From Herpetosiphon aurantiacus DSM 785 (GTDB lineage Bacteria > Chloroflexota > Chloroflexia > Chloroflexales > Herpetosiphonaceae): a stretch of 64,000 nt of DNA. Positions 39,913 through 53,438 of the stretch are shown piece by piece. Within the stretch, counting starts at the first letter, position 1; every line of letters begins with the position of its first letter. Position numbers and translations under genes: made by a program. The notes beneath the pieces were generated by a model. That model was not told the origin of the DNA, ran no database searches, and worked only from the letters and a program-made list of their open reading frames with translations. Location of the stretch: positions 5,781,199 through 5,845,198 of the forward strand of contig CP000875.1 in NCBI GenBank assembly GCA_000018565.1. Direction: 5' to 3'.

Positions 39913-40590
39913 TTATAAATTTGGAATTTGCCAATCGATTTGGCTTTGACCATGAGCCTCAAGGGCTGCGTTGATTTTAGAGAATGGGCGGCTGCCAAAA
40001 AAACCATTATCGGCCGAAAGTGGCGAGGGATGCGCCGATTGAATAATCGTATGGCGGCTGTTGTCGATTAAGCTAGCCTTCTTTTGGGCATATGCTCCCC
40101 ACAATACAAACACTACATGCTCTGGTTTGGCATTGACCTGGCGAATCACGGCATCGGTGAATTTCTCCCAGCCGCGATTTTTATGTGAATTGGCGGTATG
40201 CGCCCGTACCGTCATCACCGCATTGATCATTAACATACCTTGTTTGGCCCACGGTAGCAGGTAGCCATTATTAGGCACAACACAACCAAGATCAGTTTTG
40301 AGTTCCTTGAACATATTTTTGAGCGATGGCGGCGCTTTGATCCCAGGCAGCACCGAGAAACATAAGCCATGCGCTTGGCCTGGGCCATGGTAAGGATCTT
40401 GCCCCAACAACAGCACTTTGGTTTGCTCAGGCGAGGTTAATTCTAAAGCTGAAAAAACTTGATCTTCTGGCGGGAACACCTGTTGTTCAGCCCGTTCGGC
40501 GGCGACAAATGCTTCGAGATCGTTCCAATAGGGCTTGCTGGTTTCGTCGGCGAGCACTGGTTGCCACAAAGCAGGAATCGTTAATGCCAT
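39913..40590 (-). CDS. ung: Uracil-DNA glycosylase, family 1
   Basis: I chose the ATG at 40590 because GAGGA lies 8 nt upstream; a longer frame would add 31 unrelated residues. The catalytic and uracil-binding motifs are intact: GQDPYHGPGQAHGLCFSV (Asp water-activating), the LLPWAKQGMLMINAV region, and HPSPLSADNGFFGSRPFSKIN (His). The length (225 residues) is typical. It removes uracil from DNA to begin base-excision repair. Confidence 0.95.
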   Translation of the reverse strand: MALTIPALWQPVLADETSKPYWNDLEAFVAAERAEQQVFPPEDQVFSALELTSPEQTKVLLLGQDPYHGPGQAHGLCFSVLPGIKAPPSLKNMFKELKTDLGCVVPNNGYLLPWAKQGMLMINAVMTVRAHTANSHKNRGWEKFTDAVIRQVNAKPEHVVFVLWGAYAQKKASLIDNSRHTIIQSAHPSPLSADNGFFGSRPFSKINAALEAHGQSQIDWQIPNL

Positions 40591-40737
40591 CGTTGTTGTC
40601 CTCATATTCACACAAAGTTGGCTCTTGCATCTGCACAAGTTGCCCATATCATACAGCTTAAGAATCACCCAAGCCTGTGTCAATGGTTGTCACAAGCTTG
40701 GAGTAGCTGAAGTTGGCTTTGAGTAAGGAGTATCAGT

Positions 40738-43326
40738 GTGCTGAATCGGTTTCGAACACCTCGCATGTTCTCGTTCGTAACATTGCTCTCGCTATTTAGC
40801 CTTGTCGTTGGTCTAAACTTAGCCCAAGCAGCCCCGCGCACCACTCAAGGCGGTGGTGGCTTTACCCCAGGCAATTTGGTGGTAGTACGGGTTGGTAATG
40901 GCAGTGGCACGCTTTCAAATGCTGCAACTCCAGTTTTTCTCGATGAGTACACCCCCAACGGCGATTTTGTGCAAGCTGTTGCTATGCCAACTGCCTTGAA
41001 TGGCAATAATCGCCGCCTTACCATGTCGGGTTCGGCAACCTCGGAGGGTGCACTCAGCCTTTCAGGCGATGGTCAGTGGTTATTGCTAGCAGGCTACGAT
41101 GCTGATGTTGGTACGACGAGTGTTGCATCAAGCAATAGTGCCACGGTCAATCGGGTGGTTGCCAAAGTCAGCCTCAGTAGCCTAATTGATACAACCAACG
41201 TGATTACTGATGCCTATAGCGCTAACAATATTCGTGGCGCAACAGGTAACGGCGACAACCTTTGGGCAACCGGAACTGGTAATCCGGGCGGAGTACGTTT
41301 TCTGAATGGGATGGGCACAACCACAACCTTGATCACCCCAACCAACACCCGCGTTGTACATACCTATGGTGGTAATCTCTACTTCTCGTCATCATCAGCT
41401 ACATCGCGTGGTATTTTCCAAATTGGCAATGGCCTGCCAACCAGCGCAGGCCAAACGATTACGCCAATCGCTAGCGCAACCTCGCCCTATGGCTTTGTCT
41501 TTTTAGATCGTGAGCCAAGTGTGGCAGGCGTTGACACGTTGTATGTGGTTGATGATACATCAACAAACTTGCGTAAATTCTCCTTCGATGGCACAACCTG
41601 GACATTGCAAGGTGTTTGGGCTGAGCCAAGCACTGGGTTTCATATTGCAGCCCAAGATAATGGAGCCAACGGCGTTGATTTATACCTGACTCGCGGAACC
41701 AATAGCCTGAGCAAATTGACCGATACCGCAGCTTATAACCAACCAATTAATGCTGCGGCCCTAAATCCCATCGTTCCGGTTGGGGCCAACACAGCGTTTC
41801 GTGGAATTATCGTTGTGCCCAGCCCAGTTCAAGCTACGCCAACTCCCACTGAAACTGCGACAGTAACGCCGAGCGAAACCCCATCGCCAACCGCCGTGCC
41901 AAGCTGTTTGCGCTTTATGGTTAGTTTGGAAGGCTCGCAAGAAGTACCACCAAGTGGCAGCAATGCAACTGGCGGTGGCACAGTCGATGTTGATACCGTC
42001 AACAATATTTTGAGCTATAACCTCAGCTACCAAGGCTTGAGCGGCACCGAAACGGCTGCGCATATTCACGGTTTTGCTCCACGCGGAGCCAATGCTGGCG
42101 TTTTAGTTGGCTTGAGCACTGGTTCGCCCAAAGTTGGCATCTTCAACTACAGCGAAGCCCAAGAAGCCAATATTTTGGCCGGCCAAGCCTACGTCAATAT
42201 TCATACCGATAGTTTCCCTGGTGGCGAAATTCGCGGTCAAATCGATGGTGCAACGATTAATTGTCCACCGCCAACCGCTACGCCAACCGAAACGACTACT
42301 CCAACTGCCACTGAAACCCCATCTGCTACGCCAATTCCAAGCTGTTTGCGCTTTATGGTTAGTTTGGAAGGTTCGCAGGAAGTGCCGCCAAGCGGCAGCA
42401 CTGCAACTGGCGGCGGCACAGTCGATGTTGATACCGTCAACAATATTTTGAGCTATAACCTCAGCTACCAGGGCTTGAGCGGCACCGAAACGGCTGCGCA
42501 TATTCACGGTTTTGCCCCACGTGGAGCCAATGCTGGAGTCTTAATTGGCTTGAGCACTGGTTCGCCCAAAGTTGGCACCTTCAACTACGCTGAGAATCAA
42601 GAAGCCAATATTTTGGCCGGCCAAACCTACGTTAATATTCATACCGATAGTTTCCCTGGTGGCGAAATTCGCGGCCAAATCGATGGTGCGACGATTAATT
42701 GTCCACCGCCAACCGCAACCCCGACCGAAACTGTTACGCCAAGCGCTACGGCAACTGCGACCGCAACCGCAACAGGCACGGCCACACCAAGCCTAACCCC
42801 AATCGTTACACCACCACCAAGCTGTATCACCATGACGGTAAGTGGCAGTGGTTCGCAAGAAGTACCACCGAATAACAGCAATGGCATGGTGATGGGCATG
42901 ATTGAAATTAATACGGTTGCCAACACGATCAACTACAATCTCAGCTACCACGATTTGAGCAGCGCCGAAACTGCCGCGCATATTCATGGTTTTGCGCCGC
43001 GTGGCTCGAATGCTGGCGTATTATTCAACTTGCCGCTTGGTGCTAGCAAAGTTGGCTCGGTCAGCTACGCCGAAAATCAAGAAGCCAATATTTTGGCCGG
43101 CCAGACCTACATTAATATTCATAGCAGCAATTTCCCGGGTGGCGAGCTTCGCGCCCAGCTTGATGGTGCAACCGCCTTATGTGCCACCCCAACACCTACG
43201 GCGACAGGGACTGCTACGAACACGCCAACCAACACAGCGACGGCGACAGTGACCAATACCCCAACTAATACCGCCACTGCTGTGCCGCCAACCTTTAGAA
43301 TCTACCTGCCATTGACCATGAAATAA
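40738..43326 (+). CDS. Secreted protein with three CHRD domains and Pro/Thr linkers
   Basis: The start is GTG, with TAAGGAG 7 nt upstream. A signal peptide ends near residue 31 (LNLAQA-APR). An Asn/Thr-rich beta-propeller-like region (about 40-350) is followed by three CHRD domains (about 387-507, 533-653 and 695-815), each with SLEGSQEVPP-type and GGEIRGQIDG-type motifs and an HIHGFAPRG segment. TPTET-type linkers join them. The first two are nearly identical. The C-terminus reads FRIYLPLTMK, resembling a tail common on surface proteins of the phylum, possibly a sorting signal. CHRD modules bind metals or matrix in other proteins; the role here is unknown. Confidence 0.82.
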   Translation: MLNRFRTPRMFSFVTLLSLFSLVVGLNLAQAAPRTTQGGGGFTPGNLVVVRVGNGSGTLSNAATPVFLDEYTPNGDFVQAVAMPTALNGNNRRLTMSGSATSEGALSLSGDGQWLLLAGYDADVGTTSVASSNSATVNRVVAKVSLSSLIDTTNVITDAYSANNIRGATGNGDNLWATGTGNPGGVRFLNGMGTTTTLITPTNTRVVHTYGGNLYFSSSSATSRGIFQIGNGLPTSAGQTITPIASATSPYGFVFLDREPSVAGVDTLYVVDDTSTNLRKFSFDGTTWTLQGVWAEPSTGFHIAAQDNGANGVDLYLTRGTNSLSKLTDTAAYNQPINAAALNPIVPVGANTAFRGIIVVPSPVQATPTPTETATVTPSETPSPTAVPSCLRFMVSLEGSQEVPPSGSNATGGGTVDVDTVNNILSYNLSYQGLSGTETAAHIHGFAPRGANAGVLVGLSTGSPKVGIFNYSEAQEANILAGQAYVNIHTDSFPGGEIRGQIDGATINCPPPTATPTETTTPTATETPSATPIPSCLRFMVSLEGSQEVPPSGSTATGGGTVDVDTVNNILSYNLSYQGLSGTETAAHIHGFAPRGANAGVLIGLSTGSPKVGTFNYAENQEANILAGQTYVNIHTDSFPGGEIRGQIDGATINCPPPTATPTETVTPSATATATATATGTATPSLTPIVTPPPSCITMTVSGSGSQEVPPNNSNGMVMGMIEINTVANTINYNLSYHDLSSAETAAHIHGFAPRGSNAGVLFNLPLGASKVGSVSYAENQEANILAGQTYINIHSSNFPGGELRAQLDGATALCATPTPTATGTATNTPTNTATATVTNTPTNTATAVPPTFRIYLPLTMK
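41901..42718 (+). repeat. Two near-identical 380-bp CHRD-encoding direct repeats
   Basis: The units at 41901-42280 and 42339-42718 are about 438 bp apart (start to start) and share long identical stretches including linker codons. This indicates recent duplication or gene conversion. The third CHRD copy (about 42825-43190) is clearly more diverged. Confidence 0.85.
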
Positions 43327-43330
43327 ACCA

Positions 43331-43365
43331 AAAAGCCGCTGGATCAAGCTTGATCCAGCGGCTTT
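43331..43365. terminator. Bidirectional terminator, perfect 34-bp palindrome
   Basis: AAAGCCGCTGGATCAAG and its complement form a hairpin with T-runs of three to four on each side. It serves the CHRD gene (plus) and the small membrane gene (minus, stop at 43379). Confidence 0.75.
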
Positions 43366-52446: not shown

Positions 52447-52486
52447 AAACCAAGGCTTCTGATCAACTGATCAGGAGCCTTGGTTT
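52447..52486. terminator. Bidirectional intrinsic terminator
   Basis: AAACCAAGGCT / AGCCTTGGTTT with an inner CTGATC / GATCAG stem form a long hairpin with T or A runs on both sides. It ends the genes at 52034-52444 (plus) and 52485-53393 (minus). Confidence 0.75.
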
Positions 52487-53393
52487 ATTCGTGAAAAGCA
52501 CTCACTGGCAGGAAATCAAGGTACTTTTTAACGGCAAGATCGTCGTTAAACGGTGGCGAAAATACTTGTAATGGCAAAATAAATGTTTGAGCCACAGTTT
52601 GGCCTTGTTTATAGTTAATTGTAGGCTGAATTGCCAAAAAATCAGTTGGCAATTGCTCGATCCCATGCAATTGAAAAATGATATTTTGGCTTTGTTTTGG
52701 CTGGAGATCGATCATCGTCACTTCTACAGTTGATAGGGGTTGGGGTGGCGCATCACCAAGCATCGGTTGGCTTGCCACAGCCTTGGTTTGGGCTATGTGT
52801 AGGGTTGCTGAAATCGGATATTTAGTGCCTTTGATGCTACTAGCAAAGAGTTGGATCGCCTGATCAGTTGGATTAATCAACTCAGCTTCAAACCGTTCAG
52901 CCCGCCCCATCGTTACCACGCTATGACTACCAAGTTTGAGTGTCGCGATTGGCAAATCAAGCACTGTAAGCTCCCAATCGCCTACGGTGATAGTTTGCTC
53001 ACGCTGCTGTTCATCAAGATAGCGAATTTGACTAAAGTGATAACTGCCTGGATTAAGCCCATCAAGCATTGCCAAAACCGAGAAAAACCGCGAATTGGCT
53101 GTTGCTGGCGATGGTGAAAGGGTTACTGACTGGGTGGTTAATTCGCCCTGATCGCTCACGATGGTTAATTGATTGAATTGGGGTTCGCTGGTACGGCGTG
53201 GAGTCCCAACATCAATAAATGCTAGCTGGATTGGGATTGGCTCATGAGCTTTCGCTGTAACTATTCCAACAAACTGTACCGCATAACGTCCAGCTTTATG
53301 CCAAACATCATCTGCTGCTTGGTTACCACAACTGCTAAGCAGCAAATAACATAACATGCCAATCTGCTCAATCCATCCTCGTTTAGAAAACAT
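52485..53393 (-). CDS. Putative lipoprotein
   Basis: I chose the ATG at 53393 because GGAGAG lies upstream; a longer frame adds seven residues. The leader MFSKRGWIEQIGM leads to a lipobox YLLLSSC (Cys about 22). The mature part (about 280 residues) is beta-rich, with two similar halves that each contain a surface Ig-like pattern. No known motif was found. It is likely a surface-anchored protein of unknown role. Confidence 0.6.
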   Translation of the reverse strand: MFSKRGWIEQIGMLCYLLLSSCGNQAADDVWHKAGRYAVQFVGIVTAKAHEPIPIQLAFIDVGTPRRTSEPQFNQLTIVSDQGELTTQSVTLSPSPATANSRFFSVLAMLDGLNPGSYHFSQIRYLDEQQREQTITVGDWELTVLDLPIATLKLGSHSVVTMGRAERFEAELINPTDQAIQLFASSIKGTKYPISATLHIAQTKAVASQPMLGDAPPQPLSTVEVTMIDLQPKQSQNIIFQLHGIEQLPTDFLAIQPTINYKQGQTVAQTFILPLQVFSPPFNDDLAVKKYLDFLPVSAFHE

Positions 53394-53438
53394 AAATCTC
53401 TCCATCTTTGCCAATTATTGGTATAGTAATGTATTGCA

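Follow-up and report, generated by a model that had tools for sequence, protein, structure and literature searches.

The question raised by this locus is what the last ten residues of a predicted secreted protein of Herpetosiphon aurantiacus, FRIYLPLTMK, are for, and what might read them. The DNA analyzed, here called the window, is a stretch of 64,000 nucleotides (G000:C1:5781199-5845198) from a genome that comprises 3 contigs and 6,785,430 bases. The features of the gene and of the DNA immediately downstream are as follows, in window coordinates.

40738-43326, + strand: whole ORF, 862 amino acids plus stop, GTG start (ORF call and translation).
40738-40833, + strand: predicted N-terminal signal peptide, MLNRFRTPRMFSFVTLLSLFSLVVGLNLAQAA, with a likely AxA-type site (reading of the translation; positive by a home-made heuristic).
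40834-41832, + strand: N-terminal region, predicted secreted, without a Pfam or NCBIfam match, 70-74% identical in congeners (profile searches, congener comparison).
41905-42264, + strand: CHRD domain 1 (Pfam PF07452; boundaries by repeat comparison).
42343-42702, + strand: CHRD domain 2, 93.1% nucleotide identity to CHRD 1 (Pfam PF07452; repeat comparison).
42823-43182, + strand: CHRD domain 3, about 70% nucleotide identity to CHRD 1 and 2 (Pfam PF07452; repeat comparison).
43183-43293, + strand: Thr/Pro-rich spacer preceding the tail; like spacers separate the CHRD domains (translation).
43294-43323, + strand: C-terminal tail FRIYLPLTMK, YLP-box-like (translation, genome pattern searches, NF050076 score).
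43332-43365, no strand assigned (scored on the - strand): palindrome with a perfect 15-bp stem, terminator-like, directly after the stop codon (palindrome search).

Three CHRD domains had been claimed for this protein, and Pfam family PF07452 did match it in three stretches, with 240.2 bits in total against a gathering cut-off of 24.1. The CHRD sequence also gave weak but significant matches to the human chordin structures PDB 9qvv, 9igm and 9rd6 (E values 1e-5 to 1e-4, best 1.1e-5), although the bacterial copies differ in standing in tandem on Thr/Pro linkers. The CHRD domains of chordin are described as binding sulfated glycans (PMC13382577), and by analogy the bacterial domains may be adhesive or scaffold modules. 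The N-terminal region, of about 335 residues, matched no family in Pfam or NCBIfam, and the assignment of a fold to it was dropped when a single-sequence AlphaFold2 model proved useless (pLDDT 34). The gene appears to form a single-gene unit. Its divergently oriented neighbor, at 39913-40683, resembles a uracil-DNA glycosylase, as judged by reading of the sequence rather than by a family search.

The first two CHRD cores, of 360 nt each, are 93.1% identical overall and 85.8% identical at third codon positions, whereas the third core has 69.7-70.3% nucleotide identity to the other two. An ungapped repeat finder, whose 300-nt reference starts inside the linker, gave 88% and 65% identity. The sequence-only reading had described two almost identical 380-bp units and a diverged third; the near-identity and the divergence hold, but the unit size does not, as successive copies start 438 and 480 bp apart. 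Three CHRD domains are also found in two sister species (G078 and G274), where the whole protein is 92% identical, and two in three other congeners (G034, G102 and G043); a genome of another genus (G405) has a nearly identical CHRD pair of its own. Third-position identity of CHRD 1 between species is 70-83%, near that between the two copies of H. aurantiacus, and in G078 the two copies group with each other. Thus the expansion, which had been called recent, is indeed recent and yet older than the species H. aurantiacus, probably with later gene conversion, as the grouping of the G078 copies suggests.

The C-terminus reads FRIYLPLTMK in the translation, as had been reported. The pattern (I/V)YLPL(V/T)(M/L)(K/R), by which the sequence-only reading had advised collecting proteins, is too narrow for this genome: the tails of H. 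aurantiacus vary as [ILV][YF][LI]P[LMIV]xx[KR], more than those of its relatives. A looser search, [phi][YF][phi]P[phi]xx[KRQHSN]-stop, found 22 genome sites against 15 for the reversed pattern, and another loose pattern found 10 against 6. Counts so near the reversed control are weak evidence on their own and, like the variability of these tails, are what one would expect if the tail were a chance resemblance or a functionless remnant. That reading is nevertheless scarcely credible, given that 17/22 and 7/10 of these sites close long ORFs, that the motif is enriched in secreted ORFs and that the tail is conserved in relatives, where the linker varies.

Altogether a YLP-type tail ends 18 proteins of this genome including the CHRD protein, 17 from the search that gave 22 sites and one from the search that gave 10. 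Among the 17 others, 15 have a signal peptide by our home-made rule; the N-terminus of one (L091) lies outside the fetched stretch, and that of another (L097) fails the rule though its start reads like a signal peptide. Fifteen of the 17 have Pfam matches, to unrelated families that include GH9, M4 and C11 peptidases, 5'-nucleotidase, beta-helix, laminin-G and FG-GAP.

Enrichment of the tail at the C-termini of secreted proteins, on which the proposal had been staked in advance, was assessed in 41 stretches, 40 of them evenly spaced and the other being the window. Of the 706 ORFs, the home-made signal-peptide rule marked 146, or 20.7%, a share close to the 18.9% published for the H. aurantiacus genome (PMC3368417). 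The motif was present in the last 14 residues of 9/146 predicted secreted ORFs and 2/560 others (Fisher p = 2e-5), and in 11/3328 internal windows of the secreted set (binomial p 2e-9). One of the two matches outside the secreted set is the tail protein of L091 and L128, the start of which the stretch does not include, and at least one of the nine secreted matches (52485-53414, ending LDFLPVSAFHE) looks like a chance match.

The sorting role of the tail had been called undescribed. NCBIfam already holds two models, NF050076 (sort_motif_YLP) and NF053834 (ultrashort_CTERM), both named 'YLP-box putative sorting motif-containing protein', so that claim stands only insofar as a literature search found no paper with the name 'YLP-box'; searches on YLPL, on a sorting signal or sortase in Chloroflexi and on PorU in Chloroflexi gave nothing relevant among the matches listed. 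The CHRD protein resembles the YLP-box proteins in its motif and shares with them a predicted signal peptide and an extreme C-terminal position. Its own tail differs in scoring 13.1 and 13.0 bits with NF050076, below the cut-off of 15. With NF053834 (cut-off 10 bits) it does not appear among the matches listed, and may have been lost in the HMMER filters. The orthologous tails L066, L067, L069 and L070 score 16.4-20.7 bits with NF050076 and pass both models, and several sibling tail proteins also pass the YLP-box cut-offs. As judged from these relationships, the CHRD protein belongs to the YLP-box proteins by descent and not by curated score, and the gene reads as that of a new putative surface protein which combines CHRD domains and a YLP-box-like tag, of a kind already named in NCBIfam.

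The strict tail pattern was found in 53 of 400 Chloroflexota genomes, and summed over the 40 genomes of the order to which H. aurantiacus belongs it matched 90 times, against 3 for the reversed pattern. A search of GTDB genomes with [VI]YLPL[VIM][VIM]R-stop gave 83 stretches; among the 80 listed, 72 had titles of Chloroflexota lineages, 7 of others and 1 was unplaced. In these listed matches an ORF of at least 60 amino acids terminates at 70 of the 74 Chloroflexota sites and at one of the six sites elsewhere that have a true stop; two more sites outside the phylum have no stop. A signal peptide is predicted for 31 of the 41 Chloroflexota tail ORFs with an upstream stop. The tail is therefore nearly confined to Chloroflexota, and the suggestion that it recurs at the C-termini of secreted proteins of that phylum is supported by its recurrence, enrichment and range. 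One outlying match, at a contig end of an Elioraea MAG (L164), ends in residues identical to those of a Roseiflexus protein (L183) and is probably binning contamination.

Several other observations were made during these searches. Four small secreted Anaerolineae proteins (L151, L159, L178 and L179), of about 100 amino acids, have a signal peptide and a YLP tail as their only recognizable features, and might possibly serve as minimal reporters. One genome (G230:C1:822314-830446) has a tandem array of tailed genes, with four YLP-tail sites on a single strand at intervals of about 2.7 kb. Another genome of the same class (G281) has five near-identical YFPFFLN-stop sites, probably a repeated element.

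The sequence-only reading had advised a search for a shared processing enzyme, and neither sortase nor exosortase turned out to be general. The tail, with its L-P-x-[TAV] core, bears some resemblance to LPXT and could be imagined as a sortase signal that lacks the membrane helix. Like LPXTG signals, it places a short Leu-Pro motif C-terminally in surface proteins; that of the CHRD protein reads LPLT, and sortase (PF04203) is present in 45/45 genomes of the order. Differences are found both in the tail and in the genomes. The CHRD chain ends two residues past LPLT and has no helix, YLP tails in general lack both the helix and an LPXTG core, and proteins of LPxTG-TM-basic type exist separately within the phylum. 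Sortase was found in 0/3 genomes of genus g127 (G168, G343 and G200; 95-97% complete), where ten stretches of G168 contain 12 ORFs that end in a YLP-type tail; a signal peptide is predicted for 9 of these. We therefore regard the sortase reading as very improbable. Sortase as the general reader had been suggested by the few sortases in the tail-poor g6 genomes, and was rejected on the tail-bearing, sortase-free g127.

The tripartite PEP-CTERM, GlyGly-CTERM, PGF-CTERM and MYXO-CTERM tags, described as consisting of a motif, a hydrophobic region and a basic end (PMC11980579), offer another comparison. Like the YLP tail, each recurs within a single lineage, on secreted proteins that number in the dozens and are unrelated to one another; unlike them, the YLP tail lacks a hydrophobic helix, and exosortase (PF09721) was found in 0/16 genomes tested, on which ground it was rejected as the reader. 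Since sortase is missing from g127 and exosortase from all genomes tested, the usual enzymes do not fit. The C11 clostripains were likewise rejected, being present in only 11/22 genomes and absent from the tail-bearing G070, G200 and G276. Gene neighborhoods around the tails showed no common partner, the recurrent clusters consisting mostly of tail proteins and response regulators, and comparison by eye of sortase positions with those of tail genes showed one close pair (G222, 2.5 kb) and nothing general.

The C25 peptidases (PF01364) gave a different result. With genomes classified as tail-bearing or tail-poor before the search, C25 was found in 13/14 tail-bearing genomes, 0/8 tail-poor genomes and 0/14 control genomes; the status of G022 is doubtful (7 model matches, no strict match) and that of G200 rests on one strict match. 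Counted by genus, the figures are 10/11 and 0/4 (Fisher p 0.004, with no correction for kinship). The exception, G276, has two strict sites, of which the one read ends a long ORF. Most tail-poor genomes are smaller or belong to other lineages, and a poorer secretome may be all that sets them apart. The C25 proteins pass the PF01364 cut-off, and the active-site His and Cys are present in 16/16. The NCBIfam PorU model NF033707 was the best match of the three C25 proteins scanned (190.0, 165.5 and 220.8 bits), all below its cut-off of 420 bits, and a PDB search with one C25 protein matched only PorU (6za2, E 1.4e-4), with His and Cys aligned. By co-occurrence the C25 peptidases are a candidate for the shared enzyme.

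As read by eye, all 16 C25 proteins except G343b, G200 and G088b end in a YLP-like tail. Two of these tails were scored with the YLP models and both were below the cut-offs (no match; 14.0 bits), which might fit a tag that is retained. Because most carry the tail, the C25 peptidases may be cargo, conserved clients of a system whose real reader is some unrecognized protein, and the tail-bearing G276, which has no C25, is in keeping with this. We give this explanation a little less than an even chance. It is countered by the better match of C25 than of C11 to the distribution of the tail, and by the type IX system itself, in which Porphyromonas PorU is described as carrying the type IX tag and keeping it uncleaved (PMC5562754, PMC10202324).

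The likeness to type IX sorting in Bacteroidota goes further, in that in both cases unrelated Sec-exported proteins bear a C-terminal tag that lacks a membrane helix, and the same genomes encode a PorU-like C25 peptidase, often tagged itself. The differences are that the YLP tail is some 8-10 residues long rather than an Ig-like domain, and that the scores of the C25 proteins fall short of the PorU cut-off. The CHRD protein, for its part, gave no Pfam or NCBIfam match to the type A or type B C-terminal Ig-like domain of type IX cargo.

From these comparisons we propose that the gene product is a Sec-exported surface or matrix protein, made up of an orphan N-terminal domain, three CHRD beta-domains and Thr/Pro spacers, and that the final 8-10 residues serve as a sorting tag of the YLP-box type, a portable label rather than a feature of CHRD proteins. 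After export by Sec, an extracytoplasmic factor would recognize the tag and fix the protein to the cell surface, probably with cleavage of the tag. The best candidate for this factor is a PorU-like C25 cysteine transpeptidase, acting as PorU does on type IX cargo. Taken as a whole, we consider this proposal to be evenly poised between right and wrong; the reading of the tail by a PorU-like enzyme is put forward as a testable hypothesis and not as a result. Its most specific form, in which Chloroflexota possess a minimal PorU-type system whose ultrashort, helix-free YLP box is cut and transpeptidated by a self-tagged PorU-like C25 peptidase, is distinctly doubtful.

The tail might instead stay on the protein uncut, as a beta-strand inserted non-covalently into a surface receptor or layer protein. 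A short, beta-like sequence without a hydrophobic helix, which follows folded domains directly or is carried on flexible Thr/Pro spacers, would suit such docking, and the cognate enzyme is only a candidate; however, a fixed basic residue at the very end and a strictly C-terminal placement agree at least equally well with recognition by an enzyme. Docking of this kind seems to us unlikely.

In filamentous, gliding, predatory and phototrophic Chloroflexota, many secreted proteins bear the tail. The envelope of these bacteria is debated; we know of no established mode by which their proteins are fixed to the surface, and of no attribution of type IX secretion to the phylum. As far as their names and cut-offs tell, the NCBIfam YLP-box entries name a motif and no enzyme; what is added here is the tail-bearing genus without sortases (3/3), the lack of exosortase (16/16) and the co-occurrence with C25. 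If PorU-like peptidases do read the tail, this would explain how a phylum sorts its surface proteins. The YLP system would then be a helix-free counterpart of the sortase and exosortase tags, would suggest a PorU sorting step able to exist without the type IX translocon, and would offer in its very short C-terminal tag a possible tool for protein ligation.

The surroundings of the C25 genes show some recurrent arrangements. In 6 of 16 C25 regions the product of the direct neighbor has a signal peptide and a C-terminal membrane helix, and LPxTG-like motifs (LPQTAG, LPNTG, LPETG) are found in several of the neighboring proteins, with TIGR01167 scoring 18.6 bits in L350 against a cut-off of 15.9. 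A sortase is the direct neighbor in 3 of 16 regions. Both anchoring systems therefore occur side by side. In L348, L350, L351, L353, L354 and L358, which come from several Chloroflexota genera, the C25 gene adjoins one for a Thr/Pro- or DUF11-repeat protein with a C-terminal helix, several of these being LPxTG-like, and in L348, L350 and L354 a YLP-tailed protein is encoded two genes upstream of C25. A sortase directly follows the PorU-like C25 in H. aurantiacus (G000:C1:5931505-5933870; L344:5479-9629), G078 (L345) and G070 (L346), which represent two genera of Herpetosiphonaceae; by NCBIfam these sortases are closest to class E, below the cut-off. In Herpetosiphon the C25-sortase pair is followed next by a protein of 810-830 amino acids with two membrane helices.
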